From Treponema sp. (GTDB lineage Bacteria; Spirochaetota; Spirochaetia; Treponematales; Treponemataceae), in the NCBI GenBank assembly GCA_024693045.1, contig JAILLQ010000038.1, positions 1 to 64,000 on the forward strand: a DNA stretch of 64,000 bases, given 5' to 3'. Position numbers and translations under genes: made by a program. Numbering within the stretch: position 1 is the first letter of the stretch; every line of letters starts with the position of its first letter. Below, in pieces: positions 30,613 to 50,887 of the stretch. The notes beneath the pieces are model-generated. The model searched no databases. It saw only the letters and a program-made list of their open reading frames with translations, and was not told where the DNA came from.

Positions 30613-30659
30613 ACAGAAAGAAAAAGGGCATGAGTTTAAAATAAGCAAAGGGGTTTTTT

Positions 30660-33392: not shown

Positions 33393-33410
33393 TTTAACGA
33401 TTTATTACCT

Positions 33411-33450
33411 GCCCGGAGAATTTCCTGTGGAATTTTCCGGGCATTTTTTT
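33411..33450 (+). terminator. Rho-independent terminator after greA
   Basis: GCCCGGAGAATTT...AATTTTCCGGGC followed by TTTTTTTT. Confidence 0.88.
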
Positions 33451-33465
33451 TATTAGGAAAAAATT

Positions 33466-34428
33466 ATGGCAGCAATTCAAATTCTAGACTCTGTTTACTA
33501 CATACCCGGCGACACTAATGTAGGAATCATTTGTGCTAATCAAAGTAAAGATAATTCAGAGCCAGTTGAACTGTATCTTGTTGAATCAGGAATGCACAGA
33601 AAAGACGCTGAAAGAATTTATAAAGAATTAGAAGTCCTCTTTCCCCATGAAAAAGGAGGTTTCAAAATCTCTGCCATAATCAATACCCATGCTCACACAG
33701 ACCACGCCGGGGGAAACGCTTTTTTTTATGAAAAAACAAAATGCGACATAATGATAAGCAAAAAAGAAGCCGCAGTTCTTTTGAATCCGGCTCTAAACGG
33801 AATAATATTCTGTGGCGGTCACATGTATCCGGGAATAAATATCCCCTACTTCATAGCAGAATATTCAGAGCCAAATAAAATAATAAACTCCGAAAGTGTC
33901 ATAGATTTACCAAATGGAAGTCAGATTTCTTTTACAGATTTACCTGGACACACTTTTGAAATGCTTGGTGTAATTGTAAAGGAAAAAAGCGGAAAATCAG
34001 CTTTTTTTGCAGGCGACGCCTTTTTTGGAAGCAATCACATTATAAAATACTGGATTCCCTATCTATTTGATGTTAAAGAGTTTAAAGCCAGCCTGGATAG
34101 GCTTTCTATGATGAATTATGATATTTTCATTCCAGGTCACGGAAATCCCTGCAAGAACATAGCAGAAGAAACAGAGTTAAATAAAATAGCAGTGCTTTCT
34201 ACAGAAGAATGTATTTTGCACTGCCTTGAAAAAGAAGGTAAAACAGAAACCGACATACTTAAATATGTTGCCGATAAAAACAACATAAGGTTAAAAATCA
34301 GTCAGTTTGTACTGATTTCCATAACCATAAAAGCATACCTTATGTACCTGCTTGAAGAAAATCTTGTTTCCTTCCAAATTGTTGAAAACAAGATGATCTG
34401 GTCCATCAATAAAAGTGATAATCAGTAA
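33466..34428 (+). CDS. MBL-fold metallo-hydrolase
   Basis: INTHAHTDHAGGNAFF (HxHxDH), LPGHTFEMLGV, IPGHGNPC. Confidence 0.88.
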   Translation: MAAIQILDSVYYIPGDTNVGIICANQSKDNSEPVELYLVESGMHRKDAERIYKELEVLFPHEKGGFKISAIINTHAHTDHAGGNAFFYEKTKCDIMISKKEAAVLLNPALNGIIFCGGHMYPGINIPYFIAEYSEPNKIINSESVIDLPNGSQISFTDLPGHTFEMLGVIVKEKSGKSAFFAGDAFFGSNHIIKYWIPYLFDVKEFKASLDRLSMMNYDIFIPGHGNPCKNIAEETELNKIAVLSTEECILHCLEKEGKTETDILKYVADKNNIRLKISQFVLISITIKAYLMYLLEENLVSFQIVENKMIWSINKSDNQ

Positions 34429-35162
34429 TCCCAACCAGGAATTTTTATTGATTCATCCCAATTTTCTATAATCTGTACACCATTAGAAGAGCCTATCCTG
34501 TTTGCTCCTGCAATCAGCATATCAATGGCTTTTCTTGTGGTTCTAATTCCGCCGGAAGCTTTTACTCCAAAATCAGGACCTACGATTTTTCTCATCAATT
34601 CAACACAATGAATTGAAGCTCCGCTAGGAAGAAGTTTTCCATCAGAACTTAAAGGAGTGGCGAAACCTGTTGAAGTTTTTACAAAGTCAGCCCCTGCCCT
34701 TTTTACAAATCGACAGCAGGTATCTAGAAGAGCATCATTCAAGTAGCATGTTTCAAGAATTACCTTAACGATAATTTTTTTTCCTATTTTTGCCCCTGCA
34801 AAATGAGCAGCTTCCGTTACTTCTGCTATATCGATTTCGGCTTCAGAAAAACGACAGTCCATTACAGCACCAAGATTGATAACCATATCAATTTCATCAG
34901 CACCAAATGCTATAGCCTGAGTAGTTTCACTTATTTTATCTTGGGTAGAAATGGCTCCCAAAGGGAAACCTATTACAGTACATACTTTTATATCTGTATA
35001 TTCAAGTTCTGTTTTACAAACTGGTACATAAACCGGGTTTACACATACAGAAGCAAACTTATATTTTTTTGCTTCCTGACACAATCTGATAATTTCACGA
35101 ACACCAGCTGTCTGAGCCAGTAGTGTGTGATCAATAAGAGAGGCTGCTAAATCTTTTTTCAT
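34422..35162 (-). CDS. deoC: Deoxyribose-phosphate aldolase
   Basis: LIDHTLLAQTAG, VCTVIGFPLG, DEIDMVINLG, DFVKTSTGF, VKASGGIRT. Confidence 0.95.
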   Translation of the reverse strand: MKKDLAASLIDHTLLAQTAGVREIIRLCQEAKKYKFASVCVNPVYVPVCKTELEYTDIKVCTVIGFPLGAISTQDKISETTQAIAFGADEIDMVINLGAVMDCRFSEAEIDIAEVTEAAHFAGAKIGKKIIVKVILETCYLNDALLDTCCRFVKRAGADFVKTSTGFATPLSSDGKLLPSGASIHCVELMRKIVGPDFGVKASGGIRTTRKAIDMLIAGANRIGSSNGVQIIENWDESIKIPGWDY

Positions 35163-35237
35163 AGTCCTATTATACAACTTGAAATCTTAAAAAGTCTAGG
35201 TTAGAATTGACCCATCTTATGCCTTAAGGAGAACATT

Positions 35238-35408
35238 ATGGCTTACAAAATTAACGAAGATCAGTGCGTAAACTGTGGTTCTTGCGAACCAGAATGCCCT
35301 GTAGGAGCAATTTCTGAAAAGAACGACAAACGCGTAATCGATGCAGATGCTTGTATCAGTTGCGGAAGTTGTGCAGCTACATGCCCAGCAGAAGCTATTT
35401 CTGAATAA
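35238..35408 (+). CDS. 2[4Fe-4S] ferredoxin, 56 aa (absent from the supplied ORF track)
   Basis: MAYKINEDQCVNCGSCEPECPVGAISEKNDKRVIDADACISCGSCAATCPAEAISE; two CxxCxxCxxxCP motifs; SD AAGGAG upstream. Confidence 0.96.
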   Translation: MAYKINEDQCVNCGSCEPECPVGAISEKNDKRVIDADACISCGSCAATCPAEAISE

Positions 35409-35420
35409 GTTTATTTGCAA

Positions 35421-35454
35421 AACAGGTTTCCCCTTTCGGAAGCCTGTTTTTTAT
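35421..35454 (+). terminator. Rho-independent terminator after ferredoxin
   Basis: AACAGGTTTCC-cctttc-GGAAGCCTGTT then T run. Confidence 0.8.
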
Positions 35455-35513
35455 TCGATACTTGATAAAAATTTCCTACCTGTAATTTTTATCGCTTAGT
35501 TGGAGAAATTATA

Positions 35514-35900
35514 ATGAGCAGAATATTAAATACCTTAAGAGAAAACTTTTTTACAGCAATAAAAATTATCATACTAGTGATTCTTTGCCTTCTTTCAGGC
35601 TTTATAATTTCTTTCCCCTTTTGGAAATTTGCAACAACAAATCCAAAAATGTATACAATTTGTGCCCTTTCTTTAATTTCTATCTTTGCAATTTTTTACA
35701 TTGTAAAAAATTTCCGTGCCATGTCCGTAAAAAAAGCAGCAAAAATACTTATCAATTTTTTTATAATAGCTGCAGGTACAGCAGGAATAATAATACTCAT
35801 ATTAAATGAACTAAGAATTATTTCACTTTTGCTTTTACTTGCAATACTTTTTCTTTGTTTTTTGACGAATATGCTTTTGTATGAAAAAAAAGTGGACTAA
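35514..35900 (+). CDS. Small polytopic membrane protein, unknown function
   Basis: Four hydrophobic segments; stop overlaps the start of the next gene. Confidence 0.65.
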   Translation: MSRILNTLRENFFTAIKIIILVILCLLSGFIISFPFWKFATTNPKMYTICALSLISIFAIFYIVKNFRAMSVKKAAKILINFFIIAAGTAGIIILILNELRIISLLLLLAILFLCFLTNMLLYEKKVD

Positions 35901-36831
35901 ATTATTTTTCTTCTGTCTTATGACAGCTAACAATCTAATTTTTTCTCAAAACGCCAGTCACCAGGAAGTAAAAATTACAGAAAGCAGGCTGCCACTTATA
36001 AAAGAACTTTCTTCAAGAGACAACATCTACAAACAATTCAGTCAAACTGTAAATTATAACGAAAAATTAATAGCCCAAAATCAAAATTACTCCCTTGAAA
36101 TGGAATTTTATTCTTACACTGCAAAAAAATATGATGACACCCTTACCCTGGCAGCAGAAAGTGGTATCCCATACGACACATTGATAAGTATCAATTCAAT
36201 TTCAAATGCTGGCATAAATCTAAATCAAAAAAAATTGATTTTACCTACCGCAAAAGGCATCTTTATCACGAAGACACCGGAAAGTAACATAGAAGCACTT
36301 ATATATCAGGAATTCAAAGAATTAATTAGCAATTACGAAGATATATGTTATAATATAAAAGATAGGGTTTTCTATTTTCTGCCCGGCAAAAGACTAACGC
36401 CCACTCAAAGGGCCTTTTTTCTTGATCCTTCTATGCAGCTTCCTTTGCAGAATATTTCCATAACATCAGCATTCGGATTCAGAAACAGTCCCATATACAA
36501 GAGGTGGAAATTCCACAAGGGTATAGACCTTGCTGCTAAGGATGGAACTCCTGTATACGCGTGCCAGAACGGAAAAGTCAAGGCTGTTCTAAAAATGGAT
36601 CCGATATTCGGGAACTGTCTTATCATAGAACACGAAAATGCTTACTCTTCGGTTTATGCACATCTTTCAGACTTCTGTGTAAAAAAAGGTGATATTGTCG
36701 CCAAAGGAACAGAAATAGCCCACACGGGTCACACAGGAGCTGTCACGGGGCCTCACCTTCACTTTGAATTAAGGTTGAAAGGACAGGCCTTAAATCCGGA
36801 AGATATACTGGATTTTTCTGAAAAAAACTGA
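35881..36831 (+). CDS. M23-family metallopeptidase with LysM-like region
   Basis: HKGIDLAAKDGTPVYACQNGKV and HTGHTGAVTGPHLHFELRLKG catalytic motifs. Confidence 0.92.
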   Translation: MKKKWTKLFFFCLMTANNLIFSQNASHQEVKITESRLPLIKELSSRDNIYKQFSQTVNYNEKLIAQNQNYSLEMEFYSYTAKKYDDTLTLAAESGIPYDTLISINSISNAGINLNQKKLILPTAKGIFITKTPESNIEALIYQEFKELISNYEDICYNIKDRVFYFLPGKRLTPTQRAFFLDPSMQLPLQNISITSAFGFRNSPIYKRWKFHKGIDLAAKDGTPVYACQNGKVKAVLKMDPIFGNCLIIEHENAYSSVYAHLSDFCVKKGDIVAKGTEIAHTGHTGAVTGPHLHFELRLKGQALNPEDILDFSEKN

Positions 36832-36839
36832 AAGGAAAA

Positions 36840-37820
36840 TTGATGAAAAGGGTAAAACTTTTTTTTACATTTATAATATCTTCTCTTCTTTTCAATGTAT
36901 ACGCAGAAACTTTTAGAGTCAGCAAAACAAACCTTCTGAATCTAGAAGCACAACCTGGATATGAAAGCAGCATTAAAATCGGAATAAATGACGCTATTGC
37001 AATATCATTACCGGAAAACAGAAAATATCTTGAAGGCATAGAATTAAAAATCCAAATTCCTAAAATAGTAAGCGACTGGAGAGATTGCGTTGCCTTTTCA
37101 ATTTACGATGACATAAGCCCAAAACCCCATGTTAATCAAATCGATTATAACGGCAAAAAAATCTATGTTACCCCTATTCCCCAGAAATTAAACTGGATTG
37201 TTCAAATTCCCCTGTCAGAAGATAATTCAATAAGGGATAGTTCCTATGTTTCAAAACTAAACATATATCCTGATACAAAAAATAATTTTGCTTTCTTTAG
37301 ATTCCAGCCAGCAATGAAGGGTGTTCCAGACGAAACTTATGACGCTCTTCTTCAGGTAACTGTAAAACCTGTTCTTAAAAATTTAGGAGAACTTTCCCTG
37401 AAAGTTGAAAATTCAGCTCACGAAAGCCTATCTTCAGAAGTTTTTATCGACGACAAAAGCGTAATCTTAAATCAAGGTAAAATTTTACTGGAACCAGGTC
37501 TACATAATATTTCTGTGCAAAATGCTGAATACAGAAATGAGTTCCGCTCAATTGTTATTGACCAGGCAAAAACTACAGAGGTTAAATTAACATTAAGAAG
37601 CAATGATCCAATGATAAAAATTCTTGCTCCGCATAACGCACAAATATCTCTTGATTCTAAGACAATTACCTCTTACAACGAAGAATTCCCGATTTCTGAA
37701 GGAGAACATTCAATACGATGTCTTTTAGGCGGCTATGAACTTGTAAGAACGGTTAATATACAAAAGGGAAAAACTTATTGCATAAACCTTATTGTAGATA
37801 TGGAAATTACTGAAGAATAA
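36840..37820 (+). CDS. Secreted protein with PEGA-like C-terminal repeats
   Basis: Signal peptide; repeats SSEVFIDDKSVILNQGKILLEPGLHNISVQNAEYRNEFRSIVI and AQISLDSKTITSYNEEFPISEGEHSIRCLLGGYELVRTVNI. Confidence 0.65.
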   Translation: MMKRVKLFFTFIISSLLFNVYAETFRVSKTNLLNLEAQPGYESSIKIGINDAIAISLPENRKYLEGIELKIQIPKIVSDWRDCVAFSIYDDISPKPHVNQIDYNGKKIYVTPIPQKLNWIVQIPLSEDNSIRDSSYVSKLNIYPDTKNNFAFFRFQPAMKGVPDETYDALLQVTVKPVLKNLGELSLKVENSAHESLSSEVFIDDKSVILNQGKILLEPGLHNISVQNAEYRNEFRSIVIDQAKTTEVKLTLRSNDPMIKILAPHNAQISLDSKTITSYNEEFPISEGEHSIRCLLGGYELVRTVNIQKGKTYCINLIVDMEITEE

Positions 37821-37844
37821 AAAAAAATGCTAAAGTTTTTCGCA

Positions 37845-37945
37845 GTCTAGGGCGATAATAATAATACCGGGGGCATTTTCCCCTCCCACCCGTGTCCCCG
37901 GTTGCCTGATGGGCATGGCGCTGCACAAAGCAGCGCCTTTTTTTT
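37845..37945 (+). ncRNA. Candidate structured RNA element or attenuator, family unknown, ending in a strong terminator
   Basis: GC-rich island in AT-rich context; ACCGGGG/CCCCGGT stem (37866-37872 / 37896-37902) and terminator GGCGCTGC-acaaa-GCAGCGCC-TTTTTTTT (37917-37945). Confidence 0.45.
37917..37945 (+). terminator. Rho-independent terminator
   Basis: Perfect 8-bp GC-rich stem GGCGCTGC/GCAGCGCC plus 8 T. Confidence 0.92.
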
Positions 37946-37974
37946 ATTAAAAAAGATGCGTTATATGAAGAAAA

Positions 37975-38003
37975 TTGACAAAACGGGTCAAATTTCATAA
38001 TCT
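37975..38003 (+). promoter_or_regulatory. Putative sigma-70 promoter for PBP1A
   Basis: TTGACA then CATAAT/TAATCT region 15-17 bp downstream, directly before the ATG at 38010. Confidence 0.55.
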
Positions 38004-38009
38004 ATTAGA

Positions 38010-40565
38010 ATGAATGATATAAAAAAATCTACTATTTTTTTCTTCAGCCTGCTTTTTCTTGCAGCCATTTTTTGTGGCTCTTTATTAGGGCTGGGTATTT
38101 CAGAAACAAATAATATTAAAAATACAGAATACATAAATTCATTTGATACCGCTCTTCCAACAAAATTACTGGATATAAACGGAGAATTGATTACAGAATT
38201 CTCATCTGATGAAAAAAGAGAAATTATCAGTTTAAATAGACTTCCACAGCATATGCTAGACGCCCTTCTTACTCGAGAAGACCGCATTTTTTACAAGCAC
38301 CATGGGTTTAGTTTTAAAGCAGTTATGCGAGCCGTTGTTGGAAAACTTACCGGAAAATCACTTGGTGGAGGTTCTACTTTAACACAGCAGATTGCAGGAA
38401 CCTTGTATTGTGACCGAACAGAAATGTCTATCATGCGTAAAATAAAAGAGCTTTGGTGGGCAATTCAAATGGAACGTCATCTTTCTAAAAATGAAATTCT
38501 TGAACTCTATTTAAACAAAATCTACTTTGGTGGCGGAACATACGGAGTAAACGCCGCGTCGAAATATTATTTTGGACATTCAGCAGAAGAAATTACTCCA
38601 GCAGAAGCTGCAATTCTTGTTATTCAGCTTTCAAACCCGGCTTTCTACAACCCATTCGATCATCCAAACAGAGCAATGGACAGACAGAAAGACGTTCTTG
38701 ATTCAATGGTTAAAGCCGGCTACATAGCAAAAGAAGATGCAGATGAATCCTTTGACACATACTGGAGTAATTTTGATTACACAAGAACCAGTTCTTCTGC
38801 CTACATGATGAGGGATGACAAAGCTCCTTGGTTCAGTGAATACGTTCGCCGAGAATTGGGTGGTATGATTTACGGAAGCCAGAACATTTATACAAGTGGT
38901 TTTACAGTTAATACAACCTTAAACCTAAAGCACCAGGAACATGCCCAGCGAATTATGGAAAAATATATTCGCATTGCAAACGACCGATATCAGGCTGAAC
39001 ACACCTCCCGCTCTGGAATGGCTTTTTCAACTTATATACCTATGACAGAACTTATGTCTTTGGTATTTAACCTTCCTGCACTAAAAGTAAGCGAGCAAAG
39101 GGCTGAAGCTCTGGCAAATTCTACTTATAAAAATCAGATAAACCCTATCCTCGACGTAGTATCTATGATGACTGGTGTCGACAGTTTGAAAATATCTGTC
39201 ATCAACAGAGCAAATGCAGAAACTAAGAAAGAAAGTGAAAAAACTACGATTGAAGGAACAATGGTTTCCCTTGAAAATGACACAGGTTATATAACCGCTC
39301 TTGTCGGAGGAAGTAAATTCGACCAGGAAAATCAGTTTATTCGCGCTGTACAGGCAAGGGTTCAACCTGGTTCAACATTTAAGCCTCTTTACTACACAGA
39401 AGCAATCGATTCACGCAAGTTTACACCGGTAACACCAATTTCAGATACTCCAGTTGTTTTCCATACCGCAGACGGAAAGCCTTATATTCCTTTGAACTTT
39501 AAAGGTGAATGGGAAGGCGATGTAGAAGTATGGTATGCACTCTGCCGCTCAATGAACGTACCATCTCTAAAAGTCCTTGACGGAATCGGTTTTGATGCAG
39601 CTATAAACAGAGCCGTAAGTCTTTTGGGAATTACAAAAGAAGAACTCCCAAGCCGAGCCTTTATTCCTGGTTATCCATTGGGATTAGGTGTTGTTTCAGT
39701 TCGTCCTATAGAAATGGCCAGGGCTTTCAGCATTATAGCCAGTAGTGGTAAAGAAATTACTCCGATGGCAATAAGAACCGTAGAAGATAGAAACGGAAAT
39801 GTTATAATGAACCCGGAAAGAGAAATCCGAGAAGCTCAGAAAGCCAAGGGAGAAGCAATTCAGGTACTGTCCCCACAAACAGCTTTTGTTATGGAAAAAA
39901 TGCTTGAAAACACTGTAAACGGTCCTGGAACTTTGAGTGCACAGAGCTGGAAATTTGACTACAAAAACGAAAAAGGTCAGAAATATACAATCCACGCGGG
40001 TGGTAAAACTGGTACAACACAGAACTGGGCTGATGCCTGGACAGTTGGTTTTACTCCATACAACACATCTGCTTTCTGGTTCGGTTTCGATAAACCAGGG
40101 CAGTCACTTGGATTAAGAATTACTGGTGCTACTCTTGCAGGTTTTGCATGGGGTGATTATATGAGAGAAATCCACCGAGGGCTTCCTGCAAAAGACTTTA
40201 ATAAACCTGCAGAAGGGGTTATTCAGGTTACAGTATGTTCTGTAAGTGGAAAAATCGCCACACCTGAATGTGGAAGCCATGTAACAACCCAGTGGATTTT
40301 GGAAGGAACTCAACCAACTGATATTTGTACTTTACACGGAGGAAAAACTTCTAACTCTTCAGCATTGGGAATTTACCGTCTGAAAAATGAAATGTATCAG
40401 TCTGGTGCCCGAAGCATGAGAACTTTTGAAAAAACTCCTCTTAAATTAAATCTTGACTTCTTAAATGGAATTGAAGTAAATTCAAGCCATACAGAAGATA
40501 GAGCGGAAGATATCAAGCAGGAAGAAGAAAGCCGATTGCCTGATTATAACTACCTGATGGAATAG
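38010..40565 (+). CDS. Class A penicillin-binding protein (PBP1A-like glycosyltransferase/transpeptidase)
   Basis: EDRIFYKHHGFSFKAVMRAVVGKLTGKSLGGGSTLTQQIAGTLY (GT51), QPGSTFKPLYYTEAI (SxxK), GGKTGTTQNWADAW (KTG). Confidence 0.95.
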   Translation: MNDIKKSTIFFFSLLFLAAIFCGSLLGLGISETNNIKNTEYINSFDTALPTKLLDINGELITEFSSDEKREIISLNRLPQHMLDALLTREDRIFYKHHGFSFKAVMRAVVGKLTGKSLGGGSTLTQQIAGTLYCDRTEMSIMRKIKELWWAIQMERHLSKNEILELYLNKIYFGGGTYGVNAASKYYFGHSAEEITPAEAAILVIQLSNPAFYNPFDHPNRAMDRQKDVLDSMVKAGYIAKEDADESFDTYWSNFDYTRTSSSAYMMRDDKAPWFSEYVRRELGGMIYGSQNIYTSGFTVNTTLNLKHQEHAQRIMEKYIRIANDRYQAEHTSRSGMAFSTYIPMTELMSLVFNLPALKVSEQRAEALANSTYKNQINPILDVVSMMTGVDSLKISVINRANAETKKESEKTTIEGTMVSLENDTGYITALVGGSKFDQENQFIRAVQARVQPGSTFKPLYYTEAIDSRKFTPVTPISDTPVVFHTADGKPYIPLNFKGEWEGDVEVWYALCRSMNVPSLKVLDGIGFDAAINRAVSLLGITKEELPSRAFIPGYPLGLGVVSVRPIEMARAFSIIASSGKEITPMAIRTVEDRNGNVIMNPEREIREAQKAKGEAIQVLSPQTAFVMEKMLENTVNGPGTLSAQSWKFDYKNEKGQKYTIHAGGKTGTTQNWADAWTVGFTPYNTSAFWFGFDKPGQSLGLRITGATLAGFAWGDYMREIHRGLPAKDFNKPAEGVIQVTVCSVSGKIATPECGSHVTTQWILEGTQPTDICTLHGGKTSNSSALGIYRLKNEMYQSGARSMRTFEKTPLKLNLDFLNGIEVNSSHTEDRAEDIKQEEESRLPDYNYLME

Positions 40566-40571
40566 TTTTTA

Positions 40572-40976
40572 ATGCTTGTTAATATAAAAGACATAAAAAT
40601 AAAAAAAAGGGTAAGAAAGGACTTAGGAAATCTTGAAGATTTGAAAAACAGTCTTAGAACCTATGGTCTTTTAAATCCGATAACACTCAATTCAAAATAT
40701 GAACTAATTGCTGGCGAAAGACGCCTGCAGGCAGCAACTCAACTCGGCTGGACAAATATTAATGCTAACATTCTTAGTAATATAAGCGAAATAGATGAAC
40801 TTGAAATGGAGTTGGAGGAAAATAACCAGAGAAAGGAATTTACTAGAGATGAGCTACTGGAAGGATACAGGCGCTTAGAAAAATTAAGAAATCCGTCTGT
40901 TTTGGGAAAAATAATAAAGCTTATCAAAACCTTTTTTCAATGGATTAAAAGTATTATTACTAGCAAAAAAAAATAA
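40572..40976 (+). CDS. Truncated ParB/Spo0J-like N-terminal domain protein with basic hydrophobic tail
   Basis: IKDIKIKKRVRKDLGNLEDLKNSLRTYGLLNPITL, LIAGERRLQAATQLGW, LEENNQRKEFTRDELLEGYRRL; tail KIIKLIKTFFQWIKSIITSKKK. Confidence 0.82.
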   Translation: MLVNIKDIKIKKRVRKDLGNLEDLKNSLRTYGLLNPITLNSKYELIAGERRLQAATQLGWTNINANILSNISEIDELEMELEENNQRKEFTRDELLEGYRRLEKLRNPSVLGKIIKLIKTFFQWIKSIITSKKK

Positions 40977-40978
40977 AA

Positions 40979-41002
40979 AGTCGGGTCAAGCCCGACTTTT
41001 TC
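40979..41002. terminator. Bidirectional rho-independent terminator (convergent ParB-like / tyrS)
   Basis: AGTCGGG-tcaag-CCCGACT flanked by A and T runs. Confidence 0.85.
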
Positions 41003-41009
41003 TCTTAAA

Positions 41010-42242
41010 CTATATCTGCCCGATAAAGTACTTTTTCTTTCCCCTACGGAAAATCAAAATCTTACCTTCCAAAGCCATATCCTTAGTAATCATCTGATTT
41101 TCATCAGTGACTGCTTCACCATTTACAAAAACAGCTTTTGCATTAAGGAATTCGCGAGCTTCCCGGCGACTCTGTGCAATTTTGTTATTTACAAGAACAT
41201 CGATTACAGGTTCTTCTTTTTCGAACTTGAAAGAAGGAACTCCTTTCATTCCGCTAAGGATATCCTTAACAGAAAGTCCTTTAAAATCGCCTGCAAAAAG
41301 TTTCTGAGAAACATTAACAGCATTGTCAGCCTCTTCCTTTCCGTGGATATCTTTTACAACTTCCCATGCAAGAGTTTTCTGTGCAATACGAGTTTCCGGG
41401 TGTTCCTGCTGCTGAGCATATATTTCTTCAATCTTTTCTTTAGACAGGAATGTGAAAACCTTAAGATATTCCAAAACCTTTGCATCATCAGTATTGATAA
41501 GGTACTGGTAAATTTCATATGCAGAAGTTTTATCTTTGTTAAGCCAGAGAGCATTTCCTTCTGATTTACCAAATTTCTTTCCTGTAGAATCCAAAATCAA
41601 TGGCATAGTAAAGGCATAAGCGGTCTTATCCAGCATTTTTCTGATAAGGTCTACACCTGTAGTAATATTACCCCACTGGTCACTACCTGCTACCTGCATG
41701 ATACATTTCTTTTCCTGGAAAAGATGAACAAAGTCATAGCCCTGCATAAGCATATATGAAAATTCAGCAAAAGTTATTCCAGACTCAAGACGACGCTGAA
41801 TAATGTCTTTTCCCAGCATATAATTAACGTTTATATACTTACCTATATCTCGGAGGAAGTTTAACCAGCTGTAATTTTTAAGCCAGTCATAATTATCAAC
41901 AAGTTCAGCAGTTGGAACAAGTCGTGAAATTTGAGTCTTAATTCCTGAAATATTTTTATTTACAGTTTCTTCAGAAATTATTTCTCTTTCTGCTGTTGGG
42001 CGAGGATCTCCGATTCTACCAGTAGCACCGCCACATAAAAGAACCGGATGATGTCCTGCATTAGCAAGTCGCTTAGCCATACAAAGAGAAGAATAATGAC
42101 CAAGATGAAGACTATCTGCTGTTGGGTCTGTTCCCCAATAAAAACTGAATGGCTGACCATCCAAAACTTTCTGCAATTCACTTTCTTCACCGGCAACGTC
42201 TTTAATCAAACCGCGCCATTTAAGATCTTCGTACAATGACAT
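41010..42242 (-). CDS. tyrS: Tyrosyl-tRNA synthetase
   Basis: FYWGTDPTADSLHLGHYSSLCMAKRL, GSDQWGNITTGVDLIRK, KFGKSEGNALWL (KFGKS), C-terminal S4 domain. Confidence 0.96.
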   Translation of the reverse strand: MSLYEDLKWRGLIKDVAGEESELQKVLDGQPFSFYWGTDPTADSLHLGHYSSLCMAKRLANAGHHPVLLCGGATGRIGDPRPTAEREIISEETVNKNISGIKTQISRLVPTAELVDNYDWLKNYSWLNFLRDIGKYINVNYMLGKDIIQRRLESGITFAEFSYMLMQGYDFVHLFQEKKCIMQVAGSDQWGNITTGVDLIRKMLDKTAYAFTMPLILDSTGKKFGKSEGNALWLNKDKTSAYEIYQYLINTDDAKVLEYLKVFTFLSKEKIEEIYAQQQEHPETRIAQKTLAWEVVKDIHGKEEADNAVNVSQKLFAGDFKGLSVKDILSGMKGVPSFKFEKEEPVIDVLVNNKIAQSRREAREFLNAKAVFVNGEAVTDENQMITKDMALEGKILIFRRGKKKYFIGQI

Positions 42243-42314
42243 AATTCAATTCCTATATTGTTTTTTATGATAATTCAGTATAATTAATTACGAATATTTA
42301 TGAAAGGTGACAAT

Positions 42315-42812
42315 ATGAAAAAAATAATTGCTATCCTTCTTATTTTGTTATTTAAGAGCGGACTTTTTGCCATAGGAATCGGACCCCAAATCTCTTTTGG
42401 ACAAGGATTTTTGATACAAGAAAATATGATTCTAATTACAGGAGCATCTTGTTCTATTAAGCTCGATAAAGAACCGGTTGTAATAAACATAGCGACAAAT
42501 TACGACCATATCATAGATTGCTTTAATCCGGAAATTACTGTCGACTACTGGTTATTTTCACCAAAGATTTCTAAATACTGCAATTACTTTTTAGGAATCG
42601 GCATGGGCTCTGGAGTTGAATTCAGCAAGAATGATTTTCATTTTACTTCTACAAAAAGATTAGTCACAGGTTTCAGCTGGACCTATTACGATGGATTTTT
42701 GGAATACTTCATGCAATTAACAGCAGAAGAAGAAAACCACTTCAAATTCCCATTTAATACTAGATATGCCTTTAAATTTCCGCTGAGTTTAGGAGTTAGA
42801 TTTTATTATTAA
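42315..42812 (+). CDS. Small secreted/outer-membrane-like protein, unknown function
   Basis: Signal peptide MKKIIAILLILLFKSGLFAIG; SD AAAGGTG before the ATG at 42315; beta-strand-rich with aromatic C-terminus. Confidence 0.6.
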   Translation: MKKIIAILLILLFKSGLFAIGIGPQISFGQGFLIQENMILITGASCSIKLDKEPVVINIATNYDHIIDCFNPEITVDYWLFSPKISKYCNYFLGIGMGSGVEFSKNDFHFTSTKRLVTGFSWTYYDGFLEYFMQLTAEEENHFKFPFNTRYAFKFPLSLGVRFYY

Positions 42813-42813
42813 A

Positions 42814-43092
42814 CTATTCCTCTGACTTTTCAGAGTCATCAATAGCTTCACCGATAAACTTTGAAAGGCTATTTCCTAATCTAGTGGCCTTCTGTTTAGC
42901 TTTTCTAGCGAGTTTAGAAGCCACATACTTATTGTATTGACTGTGAGCTAGTTTGCATTCTTCTTTTATTTCTTCAGAAGCATTTTTATAATCTTCACAT
43001 TCAATTAACTTATGAGTTTTTTGATTAAATTCACAGGCAAAAGAAGCTGAATAAATTGAAAATATAGCCAGTAAAATACAAATCTTTTTCAT
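42814..43092 (-). CDS. Small secreted protein, unknown function
   Basis: Signal peptide MKKICILLAIFSIYSASFACE. Confidence 0.6.
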   Translation of the reverse strand: MKKICILLAIFSIYSASFACEFNQKTHKLIECEDYKNASEEIKEECKLAHSQYNKYVASKLARKAKQKATRLGNSLSKFIGEAIDDSEKSEE

Positions 43093-43121
43093 ACCGCCTC
43101 CAATAAATTATAAAGTCAATT

Positions 43122-44048
43122 CTAGTTTTTGTCTAAATAGCTAAGGGTAAAAGAGCCATTTCCATCTTTTCCTAGAATATTTGAAAGATAAGGAAGAATA
43201 GCATTTAAATGCTCGTACAATCCCCAGCTGGGATTAACAATAAACATTCCGCTTCCATAAAGCCTGGGCTTATCACTTCCAATTGAATTTTCAAGAGATG
43301 TTTCCTGGTGGGAATCTTCCTTGTCGACACAAAGACATGCATCAAGAACTTCTGTATGAATATCTCGGTTTTTAACAGTAGAAAAAATCATCTGCTTCAT
43401 ATTTTCAATTTCTTCAATTTTGTTAGAAAGAAGTGGATACCATAACATAAGCGTTGCCCCACTCCACTTTTTATGAACCAAAGAAAGATATTGAGCCGCA
43501 TTGTGATAATCAGAAAGTTCTTCATAACTTGGGTCACATAAAACAGCACCTCTTTTTATTACAGGAGGTATTTTTGATTTTAAAATATCCCAAGCGCTTT
43601 TATTTACGGCATTTACTGTCAAATCCTTTTGGTTTTCAGTTAAAACAGCAAGTGAACTTTGCAGTTTTTCAAACTCCTTTTTATGAAGTTCGGAAAGATA
43701 AACTGCATTTCCCTTCCCTTTTAATGCGCTTTCTATTTCAAAAGCTGGACTTCCTGGATAAAATTTTCGAGAAAGACAATCTTTTACAAAAGAAAGATAA
43801 GGTTTTAATTCTTCAGGAAAATCTGACTTTCCGCTTTCATTTAGTAGCTTCAATATTCCTTTTTCAGCTTCCCCAGTTTTCAGAGCTTCCTGGGAAGATA
43901 GATTGTAAATGCCGCTTCCACTATGACTGTCAAAAATACACCAGGGTTTCGATTTTTTTCCCAAATAATCAAGTACATAAAGGAGACAGACGTGTTTTAA
44001 TATATCCGCATGGTTACCGGCATGAAATTCGTGTAAGTAGCTGAGCAT
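43122..44048 (-). CDS. rlmJ: 23S rRNA (adenine(2030)-N6)-methyltransferase RlmJ-like
   Basis: MLSYLHEFHAGNHADILKHVCL, FYPGSPAFEIESAL, AVLCDPSYEELSDY, SGMFIVNPSWGL. Confidence 0.92.
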   Translation of the reverse strand: MLSYLHEFHAGNHADILKHVCLLYVLDYLGKKSKPWCIFDSHSGSGIYNLSSQEALKTGEAEKGILKLLNESGKSDFPEELKPYLSFVKDCLSRKFYPGSPAFEIESALKGKGNAVYLSELHKKEFEKLQSSLAVLTENQKDLTVNAVNKSAWDILKSKIPPVIKRGAVLCDPSYEELSDYHNAAQYLSLVHKKWSGATLMLWYPLLSNKIEEIENMKQMIFSTVKNRDIHTEVLDACLCVDKEDSHQETSLENSIGSDKPRLYGSGMFIVNPSWGLYEHLNAILPYLSNILGKDGNGSFTLSYLDKN

Positions 44049-46046
44049 TTATTTTAACCTGTCAATTTCAGATAGCCAAATGGAAGAACTAGCATCACTT
44101 GGCATTCTCCAGTCTCCTCTCGGAGAAAGGTTTACTGTACCTACTTTAGCTCCATCTGGCATACAACTTCTCTTGAACTGCTGATTGAAAAATCTTCTGT
44201 AAAAAGTTCGTAACCATTTGAGCTTAAAATCATGGTCATAAGGAAGAGATGAAGAATCTGCAAGGAAAAGTATTTTTTCCGGTGAAAAGCCAAATCTTAA
44301 TAGATAATACAGATAAAAATCATGGAGTTCGTAAGGACCGACTAAATCTTCAGTTTTTTGAGAAATATTTCCATTTTCAGGAGGAAGAAGTTCAGGCGAA
44401 ACTGGAGTGTCCAAAATATCATTCAATACATTTGAAAGAGCCTGATTTTGTGGCAATGAAAGGGAATCTTCATTTTCGTCCTGACCTTTTGAGTAACCGT
44501 CAGCAAAGTATTTTACAAGATAGCGAACAAGAGTTTTCGGAATAGAAGAATTAACCCCATACATACTCATATGGTCACCATTATAAGTACACCAGCCTAA
44601 AGCAAGTTCGCTTAAATCACCAGTTCCAATTACAATTCCATTCGTTTTATTTGCAAGATCCATAAGAACTTGAGTTCTTTCTCGCGCCTGGCAGTTTTCA
44701 TAAGTTATATCGTGTTTAGCTTCATCTTGCCCGATATCTTTAAAATGCTGACGAACGCTATCGGCAATGCGCACTTCTTTTAAAGACACACCGCTTTCTT
44801 TTGCGAGTGTACAGGAATTATTATAAGTTCGATCAGTTGTTCCAAAACAAGGCATAGTAACCGCAAGAATTCCAGAACGATTAAAACCACAAAGGTCAAA
44901 AGCCCTGCAAGTAACTAGAAGAGCTAGTGTTGAATCAAGACCACCGCTAAGTCCTATAACAGCAGAGCTACACTTTATATGCCTTAACCTTTTTGCTAAG
45001 CCTTCGGCCTGAAGGGTAATAACTTCTTTACACCTCTGGCTTCGTTCAGAAAGAAGAGAAGGAACAAAAGGATGAGAATCAACCAAACGGCCTAAGTTTT
45101 TTTTAGAAAAATCTACCTTTTTTACCGAAATATCAATAAAGGTAAAATCTTCGTCTTTCTGCATTGATAAGAAAGACCTTGAAGCACATTCTGCGAAAGT
45201 CTTGGTTTTGTTTCTTTCCTGGAAAATTCTTTCTAAATCAATGGAAGCAGTAATAGAGTCTTTTGAAAAAGCCTTTCTTTCAGCAAGGATACTTCCATTT
45301 TCGGCAATTAAACTGTGACCACTAAAAACCAAATCCTGGCTTGACTCATCGTGACTCGCATTCGAATATATATATGCGCACAGAGATTTTGCAGAATTCA
45401 TTTTTACAAGATTTCTACGGTATTCAGCCTTCCCGATAATTTCGTTTGAACCGGAAAGATTTGCGATAATGCTGGCACCAGCCAAAGCAAGTTTTACAGA
45501 AGGAGAAAGAGGAACCCATGCATCTTCGCAAAGTTCAAGACCTAAGACGAAATTAGAATCTTCTGTATCGCGAATTAAGATATTGCTTCCAAATGGAACA
45601 GAAGGATTTTTTTCCGAAATAAAAACATTTCGTATTTTTCCAAGAGGAGCCGAAGAAAAGTGGCGGCCTTCATAAAATTCAGAATAATTTGGAATATAGG
45701 TTTTTGGAATTAAACAGAGAATCTTACCTTTGAATAATACGGCAGCTACATTGTACAAAGCCCCGGAATATGAGTAAGGTAGTCCAAGACAAATCAATAT
45801 ATCAAGAGATGAAGTTTTCTTTGCAATAAATTCAAGGCTTTTTATCGCGGATTCCTGCAGACTTTTTTGAAGGAACAAATCTCCACAAGTATAACCTGTA
45901 ATGCACAATTCAGGGAATACAATTAACGATGCCCCCTTTTGATTAGCAAGGCGAACCTCGTCAATAATATTTTCTGCATTATATTCGCAGTCACAAACCT
46001 TTAAAGAAGGACTGGCAGAAGTAACCTTATAAAAACCGTAATTCAT
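44049..46046 (-). CDS. nadE: Glutamine-dependent NAD+ synthetase
   Basis: Nitrilase N-domain (FPELCITGYTCGDLF) and synthetase SGGLDSTLALLV, GTGDLSELALGWCTYNGDHMSMYGVNSS. Confidence 0.95.
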   Translation of the reverse strand: MNYGFYKVTSASPSLKVCDCEYNAENIIDEVRLANQKGASLIVFPELCITGYTCGDLFLQKSLQESAIKSLEFIAKKTSSLDILICLGLPYSYSGALYNVAAVLFKGKILCLIPKTYIPNYSEFYEGRHFSSAPLGKIRNVFISEKNPSVPFGSNILIRDTEDSNFVLGLELCEDAWVPLSPSVKLALAGASIIANLSGSNEIIGKAEYRRNLVKMNSAKSLCAYIYSNASHDESSQDLVFSGHSLIAENGSILAERKAFSKDSITASIDLERIFQERNKTKTFAECASRSFLSMQKDEDFTFIDISVKKVDFSKKNLGRLVDSHPFVPSLLSERSQRCKEVITLQAEGLAKRLRHIKCSSAVIGLSGGLDSTLALLVTCRAFDLCGFNRSGILAVTMPCFGTTDRTYNNSCTLAKESGVSLKEVRIADSVRQHFKDIGQDEAKHDITYENCQARERTQVLMDLANKTNGIVIGTGDLSELALGWCTYNGDHMSMYGVNSSIPKTLVRYLVKYFADGYSKGQDENEDSLSLPQNQALSNVLNDILDTPVSPELLPPENGNISQKTEDLVGPYELHDFYLYYLLRFGFSPEKILFLADSSSLPYDHDFKLKWLRTFYRRFFNQQFKRSCMPDGAKVGTVNLSPRGDWRMPSDASSSIWLSEIDRLK

Positions 46047-46100
46047 GTGCTCATAATAGCACTTTGTAAAGCTTCTTTCCACCAGTCCTTTTTTGATTAA

Positions 46101-46676
46101 TTATGAGTTTTTAATTTGTCGACCATCCTGAAAAGCTTTACCTACGATTTCTCCCAATTTTATATAATTATGATTTACAGGATCATAAGTAATAGGTTCA
46201 ACTTTTGCCGGATCTATCTTCCCGTCAGTAAGAACATCTTCTTCAGCACTTACATTTAGTATATCCGCAACCATGTAGCCTGATTCTTCATCATAGCTGA
46301 CAAGTCTACATTCCAGTGCCATAGGAAGCTCATTGATAATAGGAGCGTCTACATTATCACTTTTTTTTACAGTGAAACCGGCTTTTTTTACCTTGTCTGG
46401 TTCTTTATTACCGGAAACGATTCCTACATAATCGCAGGAGGCAACATGCTTTGCATCTGCCATACTTACAGTAAAAGCCTTGCGGTCAAGAATATTCTTT
46501 ACAGTTTTGTGCTCCGGACTAAGACAAATACCAATCTGATTAGTATCGTGTATACCACCCCAAGCCGCATTCATTGCATCCACAGTACCATCAGTACCAT
46601 AAGTCGCAATAATAAGAACCGGCATAGGAAACATAAAGGTCTGTGTTCCAAAATTTACTTTCATACAGTTCTCCAA
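46101..46676 (-). CDS. Flavin reductase family protein (DIM6/NTAB-type)
   Basis: TFMFPMPVLIIATYGTDGTVDAMNAAWGGIHDTNQIGICLSPEHKTVKNILDRKAFTVS. Confidence 0.88.
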   Translation of the reverse strand: MENCMKVNFGTQTFMFPMPVLIIATYGTDGTVDAMNAAWGGIHDTNQIGICLSPEHKTVKNILDRKAFTVSMADAKHVASCDYVGIVSGNKEPDKVKKAGFTVKKSDNVDAPIINELPMALECRLVSYDEESGYMVADILNVSAEEDVLTDGKIDPAKVEPITYDPVNHNYIKLGEIVGKAFQDGRQIKNS

Positions 46677-46758
46677 TTGAAATTTAGGTATATTTTATCA
46701 TGCTTTTCGCCTATTGTAAAAAAATACCCCTTTTGTCATACTAAATAAAGGTGACAGC

Positions 46759-47478
46759 ATGGAAGCTTCTGAATTAACTACAAATCTTAATCTAACAGGC
46801 AGTAATGCTGTGATTTTTGACATGGACGGAACTATTCTAGATTCCATGACCTACTGGGCTGATACTGCCGAAAGATACCTTCTAAAACTCGGCATAGAAC
46901 CTGAAGCAAACCTAAGCCGCAAAATAGCAAATAAGAGCCTGAAACACGGCGCAGAATACCTTAGAAGAAAGTACGGTCTAAAAAAATCAGATTTAGAAAT
47001 AATAAAAGGCATAAAAGAAGTTATAGCCCAAGCTTACCGCTATGAAATCCAAGCAAAGGATGGAGCTGAAAACTTTCTAAAAGAACTAAAAAAAAGGGGA
47101 ATTAAAACAGCCCTGGCAACAGCTACGGATAGAATAATCTTTGATTCTGCAATGAAAAGATTAAATTTGGAACAATATTTTGATTTTATACTCACCTGCT
47201 CTGAATACAATACTTCGAAAACAGAGCCATTGATTTATTTGAAGGCGGCAGAAAAACTAAATTGCCCGATTGAAAATACCTGGGTATTTGAAGATGCTTT
47301 ATATGCACTAAAAACAGCCTCTTCTGCAGGATTTAAAACTGCCTGCATCTATGACTCCTGTGCAGAAGAATCTGTTGAAGAATTAAAAGCCTTCAGCAAT
47401 TTGTACTTTGAAAATTATGACAGAGTTTCAGCCTATTTTTTTGGAGGAGTTGATTCCTTTCTGTCTTTACAAAAATAA
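46759..47478 (+). CDS. HAD-superfamily hydrolase (beta-phosphoglucomutase-like)
   Basis: AVIFDMDGTILDSMTYW; TALATATDR; NTWVFEDALYALKTASSAGFKTACI; SD AAAGGTGA. Confidence 0.9.
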   Translation: MEASELTTNLNLTGSNAVIFDMDGTILDSMTYWADTAERYLLKLGIEPEANLSRKIANKSLKHGAEYLRRKYGLKKSDLEIIKGIKEVIAQAYRYEIQAKDGAENFLKELKKRGIKTALATATDRIIFDSAMKRLNLEQYFDFILTCSEYNTSKTEPLIYLKAAEKLNCPIENTWVFEDALYALKTASSAGFKTACIYDSCAEESVEELKAFSNLYFENYDRVSAYFFGGVDSFLSLQK

Positions 47479-48074
47479 CCGCCATCTTCCAGATAACGGC
47501 GACGAGTCATAATTAGATTTATAAGTTCCTGATACATGTTATAGTCGATTTCTATAGCCATTGGGAGCAGAAAAAACTCTGTTTCATCGCAATAACGCTC
47601 TATGAATTTCGGGTCAGTAACATAACCAAGAGAAATCATATTAGAAATTCTATCTGCACACTTTAAAATTTTTGCCTTTTGGCTGCCTGTATCAAGAATT
47701 CTCTTTAAGAATGCCCTTTTATCTTCATCTTCCCGTCGTGTAACTTCTAATACTAAATCCAGGACTTTTTCACCTTCTGAATCTGCATTTATAATAAGAT
47801 TTCTGTCAAAACCGGGAATATCTTCTACAGTATCATGAACAACAGAGGCCTTTAGAAGCACGGAATCTATGTATCCATAATCGATAAGAATAGCCAGTGT
47901 ATCCATCTGATGGCGAAACATATTACCACCAGCATGACGGGCTTTACCAATAAGACCAGTTGCAAGCTGCATGTATGGAGCCAAATGCATATCACTTAAA
48001 CGCTGCATTTCTTCAATTTTCATATTTTTAGAGCGTTCGACTTTCATCTCATACTTTGCTTTAGCCATATGCAT
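47433..48074 (-). CDS. Stand-alone HD-domain protein resembling the RelA/SpoT hydrolase domain
   Basis: FRHQMDTLAILIDYGYIDSVLLKASVVHDTVEDI and ILKCADRISNMISLGY. Confidence 0.7.
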   Translation of the reverse strand: MHMAKAKYEMKVERSKNMKIEEMQRLSDMHLAPYMQLATGLIGKARHAGGNMFRHQMDTLAILIDYGYIDSVLLKASVVHDTVEDIPGFDRNLIINADSEGEKVLDLVLEVTRREDEDKRAFLKRILDTGSQKAKILKCADRISNMISLGYVTDPKFIERYCDETEFFLLPMAIEIDYNMYQELINLIMTRRRYLEDGGYFCKDRKESTPPKK

Positions 48075-48139
48075 TCCTCCTGAATTCTAGCTGCACAAAT
48101 TCAAGGCAAACCGGTTATTAAGTTTGCCTTGAATATTAA

Positions 48140-50887
48140 TTAAAGACTAGAAATATAAGACTGAAGTTTTTCAATCTTACGTTTATTTTCTTCCATCTTG
48201 TCTCTTTCTGCCTGAACAACTTCAGCAGGAGCATGTTGAGCGAAACTGCCTGAAAGTTTTGCTTCACTTCGTTTTACCCAACCAGATTCAGTATCTATTT
48301 CTTTCTTGAAACGAGCAATTAAAGCATCCTTGTTGATTGATTCATCAACAATAATAAATGCTTCATAACCCTTTCCAACAGTTCCTACCGAACTCAGAGG
48401 CTTTGCATCAGTGAATTCAACATTTGCAACACCACAAAGTAATTTTATCATATCAACTTTTTCTGTGCAAACTTCTGCTTCACTTCCCTTTGTAATTAGC
48501 AGAGCAATATTGATTTTATTAGCAGGATCAATACCACATTCGGCACGCAATGCTCGAACCTGACCAATCAAGTCTTTTAGAACATCAAAACGAGCCTGAA
48601 CAGCTTTGTCATCACGCTCTGCTACAACTTCTGGGAAAGGAGCGTTGATAAGCATAGCCTGGTATTCAGAATTAGAAAGAATCTTGTTTTGGCCAGCCTT
48701 CTTTCTATTTTCAATAATTTCTGCTAATGGAAGCTTAGAATAGATTTCCTCTGTAACAAACGGAATAAATGGATGAAGAAGTCTTAAAGATTCTTCAAGA
48801 ACATTAAGAAGAACAGAAACAGCTCTATCTTTTTCATTTTCATCGCCATGCCAGAAGCTTAATTTTGTGGCTTCAACATACCAGTCACAGAATTCGTTCC
48901 AGAAATATTCCATAAGAGAAGAAGCTGCATCATTGTAACGGTAACTTTCAAGAGCTTCTCTATTTGCCTTTACAGCAGCATTAAGGCGTGCATAAATCCA
49001 GCGGTCAAGTTCTGTAAGATCAGAATCTTTTACAGGAATCAATGTACGGCCTTCAAGATTTCCAAGAATGTAGCGGCTTGCATTCCAAACTTTATTACAG
49101 AAGCGGCTTCCTAATTTAAAGCTATCTTTGTCGATAAGGATATCCTGTCCCTGTGCACACATAAAACTTAATGTAAACTTGAGGGCATCAGAACCATAGA
49201 GGTCAATAATTTCAAGAGGATCGATACCATTTCCCAAAGACTTACTCATCTTGCGGCCCTGCTTATCTCTAACAAGACCATGGATATAGATATCATGGAA
49301 AGGAACTTTTCCTGTAAATTCCAAAGAAGCCATAATCATTCGGCTTACCCAGAAGAAAATGATATCGTAAGCAGTTACAAGAGCACTTGTAGGGAAGAAA
49401 TTTTCAAAATCTGGAGTCTTTTCAGGCCAGCCTAAGGTACTAAAAGGCCACAACCATGAAGAGAACCATGTATCAAGTACATCTTCATCCTGTTTAAGTT
49501 TCTTTGAACCACACTTTGGACAGCAGCTTGGGTCTTCACGACTTACAATTGTTTCTCCACAATCTTCACAGTACCAGGCAGGAATACGGTGACCCCACCA
49601 AATCTGACGGCTTACACACCAGTCGCGAATATTTTCAAGCCAGTTGCGATATGTGTTTTCCCATTTCTGAGGAAAGAACTGAATTTCTCCATTCTTCCAT
49701 GCAGCAAGAGCTTTTTCTGCCATTGGCTTCATTTTTACGAACCACTGAGCAGAAAGATAAGGTTCAACAACAGTCTTACAACGATAACAGTGTCCTACAG
49801 AGTGAACCATTTTTTCTTCACCCTTAAAAAGGCCAGCCTCTGTCAAATCTTCTATGACGAGTTTGCGGGCAGCTTCAGGTTTTAATCCCTGATATTTTTC
49901 AGGAACATTTTCGTTTAAGCGTCCGTCTGGAGTCAAAAGATTTATTACTTCAAGATTATGGCGTTTACCAACTTCCCAGTCGTTAGGGTCGTGAGCAGGC
50001 GTAATCTTTACCATACCTGTTCCAAAGGCCATATCAACATAATCATCTGCAATAATAGGGATTTCTTTTCCTGTGATAGGAAGTTTTAGTTTTTTTCCAA
50101 CAATAGACTTGTAGCGGTCATCGTTAGGGTTTACAGCAACAGCAGTATCACCAAAGAAAGTTTCAGGACGAGTTGTAGCAACCTCAATTTTTCCACTTCC
50201 ATCAGCGTATTCATAGTAAAGGTGGTACATTGCCCCCTGTGTATCTTCGTGGTCAACTTCATCATCTGCCAATGCTGTTCCACAACGAGGACACCAGTTT
50301 ACAAGACGCTGGCCCTTATACATAAGACCGCGTTCATATAATGTTACAAAAACATCTCGAACGGCTTTTGAAAGACCTTCATCATAAGTAAATCTTTCAC
50401 GATCCCAGTCTGTTGAATTACCAAGTTTTCTCTGCTGTTTCACGATGATGTCGTGATGAGCCTTCTTAACTTCCCAAGTTCTTTCAATAAACTTTTCACG
50501 GCCAAGGTCATTGCGAGTCTTGCCTTCTTTTTTGAGCTGTCGTTCAACAACATTCTGAGTTGCAATACCGGCGTGGTCTGTACCTGTAAGCCAAAGAGTA
50601 TTATCACCCTTCATACGGTGATATCGAACAACTACATCCTGTAAAGTATTATTCAATCCGTGACCCATGTGAAGAACGCCGGTAACATTTGGCGGAGGAA
50701 TCACGACTGTATATTTTCCTGATTTACCACTGCAATCTTTACAACTGCATTTTTTAACGTATTCTGCATGAATCGGAGATGATTCATCACTTGCTGGCTT
50801 AAAGTAGCCACCCTCGTCCCACTGATTATAAATTCTGTCTTCAAAATCTTTAGGGGAATATGCCTTTTCAAGTTCAATTGCTTTCAT
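48140..50887 (-). CDS. valS: Valyl-tRNA synthetase
   Basis: PPPNVTGVLHMGHGLNNTLQDVVVRYHRMKGDNTLWLTGTDHAGIATQ; KMSKSLGNGIDPLEI. Confidence 0.97.
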   Translation of the reverse strand: MKAIELEKAYSPKDFEDRIYNQWDEGGYFKPASDESSPIHAEYVKKCSCKDCSGKSGKYTVVIPPPNVTGVLHMGHGLNNTLQDVVVRYHRMKGDNTLWLTGTDHAGIATQNVVERQLKKEGKTRNDLGREKFIERTWEVKKAHHDIIVKQQRKLGNSTDWDRERFTYDEGLSKAVRDVFVTLYERGLMYKGQRLVNWCPRCGTALADDEVDHEDTQGAMYHLYYEYADGSGKIEVATTRPETFFGDTAVAVNPNDDRYKSIVGKKLKLPITGKEIPIIADDYVDMAFGTGMVKITPAHDPNDWEVGKRHNLEVINLLTPDGRLNENVPEKYQGLKPEAARKLVIEDLTEAGLFKGEEKMVHSVGHCYRCKTVVEPYLSAQWFVKMKPMAEKALAAWKNGEIQFFPQKWENTYRNWLENIRDWCVSRQIWWGHRIPAWYCEDCGETIVSREDPSCCPKCGSKKLKQDEDVLDTWFSSWLWPFSTLGWPEKTPDFENFFPTSALVTAYDIIFFWVSRMIMASLEFTGKVPFHDIYIHGLVRDKQGRKMSKSLGNGIDPLEIIDLYGSDALKFTLSFMCAQGQDILIDKDSFKLGSRFCNKVWNASRYILGNLEGRTLIPVKDSDLTELDRWIYARLNAAVKANREALESYRYNDAASSLMEYFWNEFCDWYVEATKLSFWHGDENEKDRAVSVLLNVLEESLRLLHPFIPFVTEEIYSKLPLAEIIENRKKAGQNKILSNSEYQAMLINAPFPEVVAERDDKAVQARFDVLKDLIGQVRALRAECGIDPANKINIALLITKGSEAEVCTEKVDMIKLLCGVANVEFTDAKPLSSVGTVGKGYEAFIIVDESINKDALIARFKKEIDTESGWVKRSEAKLSGSFAQHAPAEVVQAERDKMEENKRKIEKLQSYISSL

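Follow-up and report, generated by a model that had tools for sequence, protein, structure and literature searches.

What does a ParB-fold protein do when it has no DNA-binding part and its gene sits directly behind a penicillin-binding protein gene? The question is raised by a 134-aa open reading frame in the window, a stretch of 64,000 nucleotides from a contig of Treponema sp. (Table 1). A sequence-only reading of this DNA had described the product as a ParB-type CTPase domain lacking the helix-turn-helix (HTH), with an amphipathic basic tail and translational coupling to the PBP1A gene, and had proposed a membrane-tethered CTP switch for cell-wall synthesis. The reading frame itself, its motifs GERRLQAA, ENNQR and FTRDELLEGYRRL, the 6-nt gap between the PBP1A stop (40565) and its ATG, and the lack of a visible Shine-Dalgarno sequence before it were all as described. 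We give about an even chance to the reading that the protein sits on the membrane as a scaffold or sensor in wall growth and binds a nucleotide, probably CTP, with weak or no hydrolysis.

Table 1. Features of the PBP1A and ParB-like gene pair in the window.
Feature	Positions	Strand	Remarks
Class A penicillin-binding protein PBP1A (851 aa; transglycosylase plus transpeptidase)	38010..40565	+	First of gene pair
134-aa ParB-fold protein, no HTH, amphipathic helix at the C-terminus	40572..40976	+	ATG start; 226 homologues read
Box I region, residues 10-24 (IKKRVRKDLGNLEDL)	40599..40643	+	R13, R15 invariant (224/224)
C-motif, base-contacting, S27 to G32 (= C. crescentus S74, G79; PMC8367383)	40650..40667	+	S27, G32 invariant
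P-motif 2, GERR, residues 48-51	40713..40724	+	G, R, R invariant; E49 variable across family
P-motif 3, ENNQR, residues 83-87	40818..40832	+	E83, N84, R87 invariant
Basic amphipathic helix at the C-terminus, residues 110-134 (VLGKIIKLIKTFFQWIKSIITSKKK)	40899..40973	+	Predicted helix 110-133
Terminator-like hairpin between the 134-aa gene and tyrS (opposite strand)	40975..41001	.	

The identity of the upstream gene is clear from its two Pfam domains, PF00912 (E 1.6e-58) and PF00905 (E 4.3e-21). The neighbours of the 134-aa gene in the window are PBP1A and tyrS, with no adjacent parA; a separate, canonical parA-parB pair, with a full-length ParB of 319 aa, is found on contig 30 of the same genome. 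Shortly upstream of PBP1A, an M23-type (probably also LysM) peptidase-like ORF was read from the sequence at 35881-36831, and the PBP1A neighbourhood therefore has a second wall gene. Between the ORF at 36840-37820 and PBP1A lies a G+C-rich block (37842-37945) closed by a strong terminator-like hairpin at 37917-37937; the block had no Rfam match, and an Rfam search of positions 30000-50000 gave no matches at all.

The assignment to the ParB fold held up by sequence and by structure. Residues 10-85 gave a ParB_N (PF02195) match of 45.7 bits (cut-off 26.3; E 6.8e-12). Noc (TIGR04285) and parB_part ranked at the top of NCBIfam, both below cut-off, and the best relative of solved structure by sequence was Noc (7ng0, E 4.8e-12). 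A Pfam match to CUX1_N over residues 60-133 scored 22.5 bits against a cut-off of 27 and was treated as a helical artefact. An AlphaFold2 model, built from an alignment of 28 homologues (mean pLDDT 85), has a ParB fold, a helix at 92-106 and then a single helix at 110-133 in the place of the ParB HTH that binds parS. Foldseek searches of the PDB with this model again ranked Noc first (7nfu, E 2e-6), followed by M. xanthus ParB with CTPgammaS or CDP, C. crescentus ParB with nucleotides, and PadC (6ryk). The protein is a single ParB_N domain with a C-terminal helix and without a dimerisation domain.

These matches place the protein near Noc of the Bacillales, which likewise joins a ParB-fold domain to a membrane-targeting amphipathic helix, in Noc switched by CTP (PMC8429893). 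Noc, however, keeps the HTH and the C-terminal domain, binds NBS DNA and hydrolyses CTP, and its amphipathic helix is N-terminal, whereas the spirochaete protein starts with the ParB domain, carries its helix at the C-terminus and lacks the other two parts. It shares the ParB_N domain and the full set of seven CTP-binding residues with canonical ParB/Spo0J proteins; unlike them, it lacks the HTH, the C-terminal dimerisation domain, a neighbouring parA and the ParA-binding motif (L/F/I)G(K/R)G(L/F/I), which was found in 0 of 226 homologues.

The tail was described correctly as amphipathic and basic. Its hydrophobic moment in the window protein is 0.39, a value reached by none of 500 shuffles. 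Among 99 non-redundant members from the order, the 18 residues after P108 had a mean moment of 0.41, the tail was significantly amphipathic compared with shuffles (p<0.05) in 91, and the net charge over 20 residues averaged +3.8. In 40 more distant members the last 30 residues were scanned for their best 18-mer, which was compared with shuffles handled likewise, and 26 were significant. Tails from the order's other families follow the consensus NPGFFRRIWNAIxxFFxRLF. Sixteen members from the window's family, 195-225 aa long, continue beyond the amphipathic helix with two strong hydrophobic segments, and an AlphaFold2 model of one of these contains long helices at 131-163 and 169-205, with pLDDT mostly near 90. 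This transmembrane hairpin behind the same helix is the strongest argument in favor of membrane attachment. The ratio dN/dS was about 0.16 for the tail and about 0.06 for the core, both well below 1, with synonymous sites near saturation in many pairs and a tail value drawn from few sites. The character of the tail is therefore better conserved than its exact sequence.

The helix could instead be a protein-protein element for dimerisation or docking, which would make the product a soluble nucleotide-dependent adaptor, an explanation that we regard as unlikely. Amphipathic helices serve as interaction surfaces too, the modelled helix is continuous with a pLDDT near 80, and substitutions accumulate faster in the tail than in the core. 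However, the hairpin in the 16 relatives, the basic, aromatic-rich composition typical of membrane helices, and a character better conserved than the sequence all point to the membrane. Somewhat less probable still is that the basic tail binds DNA or RNA and the protein is a regulator, for example of its own operon, comparable to the CTP-controlled expression of KorB and VirB. The positive charge of the tail would suit this, as would the fact that characterised ParB-like proteins mostly act on DNA according to a 2025 survey of the fold (PMC12704722). On the other hand, the 226 homologues are, except for the hairpin forms, too short for the HTH and C-terminal domain of ParB, and the tail has an alternating hydrophobic face and exists in transmembrane variants.

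The membrane-bound protein that we prefer would also hold a nucleotide, and the residues for this were compared with those known from ParB. Mutational data from C. crescentus ParB have shown that CTP binding needs R60, S74, G79, R103, R104, N136 and R139, while hydrolysis needs Q58, E102 and E135 (PMC8367383); the hydrolysis residues of B. subtilis (E78, E111) and M. xanthus (Q52, E93) agree with these. In our alignment of 224 homologues, the equivalents of the seven binding residues (R15, placed in a Box I register that is uncertain by two residues relative to canonical ParB, and S27, G32, R50, R51, N84 and R87) were invariant in 99/99 non-redundant order members and 40/40 further phylum members. 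The free variation of CTP-contacting residues that the sequence-only reading had named, together with a non-conserved tail, as a refuting outcome was therefore not seen. As to the register, MAFFT pairs R13 with the ParB arginine, while an RxxF-like spacing makes R15 the equivalent of the arginine and R13 that of the glutamine. Neither candidate arginine varies, and R15 was preferred because members of g2, a genus in the window's own family, have RKEF there. An HH alignment begins at residue 17, downstream of both.

The catalytic trio of a ParB-type CTPase, in contrast, is incomplete. The Box I glutamine (the Q58 equivalent) occurred in 0/224 sequences, whether sought at R13 or at position 11. 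The GERR glutamate (E102) is E in 45/99 order members and in 3/40 of the more distant ones, with G, R, Q, H, Y or F as substitutes across the family, and only the E135 equivalent, E83, is always E. With the first of the three always missing and the second frequently substituted, the label of CTPase is unsupported.

The same two positions set apart PadC, a bactofilin-associated protein of Myxococcus xanthus that likewise has a ParB fold without DNA binding. PadC lacks the catalytic glutamine and the GERR glutamate, and it binds CTP without hydrolysing it (PMC8367383, PMC8494293). The residue pattern of the spirochaete family resembles that of such a non-hydrolysing CTP binder; by analogy, the spirochaete proteins would be expected to bind the nucleotide but to hydrolyse it hardly, if at all. 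Some hydrolysis may remain, given that the window protein itself retains the GERR glutamate and that E83 is found everywhere. The two proteins also differ: PadC has the ParA-binding motif and lacks ENxQR entirely, whereas the spirochaete protein lacks the ParA motif, carries ENxQR, ends in a membrane tail or hairpin and is linked to PBP1A.

Judging from these residues, the ligand is most likely CTP. Some members of the ParB fold bind ATP or GTP, and nucleotide choice in this fold is not predictable from sequence, as stated in the survey (PMC12704722). One alternative is a membrane-attached, single-domain enzyme of the SerK or sulfiredoxin type that uses ATP or ADP. SerK, SbnI and sulfiredoxin have the same fold without an HTH, SerK and sulfiredoxin were among the lower-ranking Foldseek matches, and ATP is bound by other members of the fold. 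We consider this improbable, because Noc, ParB and PadC match much better by both sequence and fold and because P-motif 3 (E83, N84, R87), which the survey describes as often lost in atypical members, is fully kept.

The preferred reading of a membrane-bound nucleotide binder acquires its suggested link to wall synthesis from gene order. PBP1A lies directly upstream in 191 of the 223 loci with enough flanking DNA, confirming that the linkage seen in the window is stable. The order set comprises 186 loci, with 176 linked to PBP1A on the same strand, 3 without upstream DNA and 7 unlinked; the unlinked ones are all six g2 loci read and one genome of g3. Class members from other orders, Borrelia-like ones included, were linked in 15/15 sampled cases, and outside the class linkage was found in 0/25 sampled loci. 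Synteny had been proposed for examination across Treponema; it reaches far beyond that genus, across the class, but is absent from the loci sampled outside the class and from those of g2. The gene downstream varies by lineage, being tyrS in part of the genus and pgi-like in Borrelia-like genomes. Since the downstream gene changes while the pair persists, the pair of PBP1A and ParB-like genes is conserved for its own sake, and chance linkage through conserved surrounding synteny was ruled out.

The gap between the two genes has a median of 18 nt and is within 50 nt in 163 of the 191 linked loci. Translational coupling had been suggested from the 6-nt gap without a Shine-Dalgarno sequence, which is true of the copy in the window, but an SD-like core precedes the start in 137/191 linked loci. 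Obligate coupling was therefore ruled out as a general rule, and likely co-transcription fits better.

A strict partnership with PBP1A was also ruled out. The 7 unlinked loci in the order, the 25/25 outside the class and the many genomes with PBP1A only mean that PBP1A cannot be the sole partner. In addition, the cytoplasmic N-terminus of PBP1A has only a few residues and would offer little surface for direct contact. That no linkage was seen outside the class suggests an original role of the protein at the membrane generally, with PBP1A as a later partner or the clearest one. In g2 (loci L111 and L113) the gene follows a putative lipoprotein of 518-519 aa, the L111 copy being without a Pfam match. 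Several genomes from outside the class have, after the ParB-like gene, a secreted or lipoprotein-like ORF of 585-660 aa (L224:4399-6282, L226:980-2962, L232 and L233:4400-6328), with no Pfam match in the three scanned; these ORFs are possible alternative partners.

We read 226 homologues, 186 from the order set and 40 from further loci. A contig scan gave 76 close relatives, all of Treponema or Spirochaetaceae type, and a PBP1A orthologue stood upstream in every one having upstream DNA. A profile search of 294 order genomes was bimodal, with the family below about 1e-26 and canonical ParB near 1e-10; three families of the order have the gene, one of them with a patchy distribution, and a fourth lacks it. 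Searched across the phylum, the family extends to other orders and classes, including a small-genome family with a 0.9-Mb chromosome. The gene order in those small genomes is a PlzA-like gene, PBP1A, the ParB-like gene and a glucose-6-phosphate-isomerase-like gene, which we take to be the order in Borrelia. Many complete genomes, including a T. pallidum-like one of 1.1 Mb and several of the window's genus, have PBP1A without the ParB-like gene. PBP1A was found in 14/14 genomes searched with the PBP1A protein, and at the parsed PBP1A loci of family-lacking genomes, which do not include three reverse-strand loci, no family member follows.

The homologues are all short and the gene is under purifying selection (dN/dS about 0.08), so a frameshifted remnant of a full-length ParB, which the sequence-only reading had named as one outcome that would undo it, was rejected. 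With PBP1A linkage and the tail recurring across the class at that dN/dS, the arrangement is far beyond chance. In a ParB_N tree, which rests on 112 columns, the family stood apart from four canonical ParB proteins and grouped with ParB-like domains from viral contigs, a placement biased by the viral rows having been gathered with the family's own profile. The nearest ParB_N outside the phylum among our searches also came from viral contigs (best 46% over 94 aa). The orphan ParB-CTPase-fold proteins of phages and mobile elements, the second group in the survey (PMC12704722), have a similar Box I spacing, RxRxxLGDLxxL, likewise carry LGWxxI after GxRR, and are nearer than canonical ParB in the tree. 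Unlike the spirochaete protein with its short membrane tail, most of the viral orphans examined run to 330-610 aa and carry long extensions at the C-terminus. That the gene is a phage- or plasmid-derived ParB relic riding behind PBP1A with no envelope role is very improbable: the viral affinity (from biased sampling) and the gene's absence from many genomes would fit, but the phylum-wide spread, strong purifying selection, invariant pocket and consistent linkage in class members outside the order argue against it.

In the reading that we favor, the product would be a small peripheral membrane protein of spirochaetes whose C-terminal basic helix holds the inner face of the cytoplasmic membrane; in some lineages the two-helix transmembrane hairpin would serve the same role. 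The ParB-fold domain would bind nucleotide, most likely CTP, with poor or no hydrolysis, and would probably dimerise through this nucleotide domain, as in ParB, Noc and PadC. The state of the protein would then be set by the off-rate of the nucleotide and not by hydrolysis. When occupied, it may signal the level of CTP or serve as a scaffold close to PBP1A, and so position or tune envelope growth. In the class Spirochaetia it would act together with PBP1A, the pair probably being co-transcribed. A narrower version, in which the protein is a spirochaete-specific, membrane-anchored, CTP-binding and non-hydrolysing sensor or scaffold for PBP1A that sets where or when peptidoglycan is inserted, with no DNA involved, is offered only tentatively and is less probable than the general one.

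The ParB fold, its use without DNA in PadC and membrane binding by a ParB relative in Noc are already known. An HTH-less, membrane-tailed ParB fold behind PBP1A across a class appears to be undescribed: the main text of the survey (PMC12704722) makes no mention of spirochaetes, penicillin-binding proteins or transmembrane forms, and literature searches on BB0731, and on ParB-like proteins with Treponema and PBP, found nothing relevant. In Borrelia burgdorferi, bactofilins were recently reported to organise peptidoglycan insertion (PMC13393453). The conserved membrane-tailed protein behind PBP1A is a new candidate for the machinery that restricts peptidoglycan insertion in spirochaetes. If the proposal is true, a fold known mainly as a DNA clamp would be at work on the membrane without DNA, and nucleotide supply may be tied to wall growth. 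Natural variants make the switch testable, having the helix alone or with the hairpin, and E, G, R, Y or F at a catalytic position.

Finally, two g3 genomes without the ParB-like gene have a deaminase gene after PBP1A (L137:4417-4908 and L139). The L137 product is a dCMP/cytidine deaminase (PF00383, E 1e-25), which may hint at a link to cytidine nucleotides or is perhaps a coincidence.
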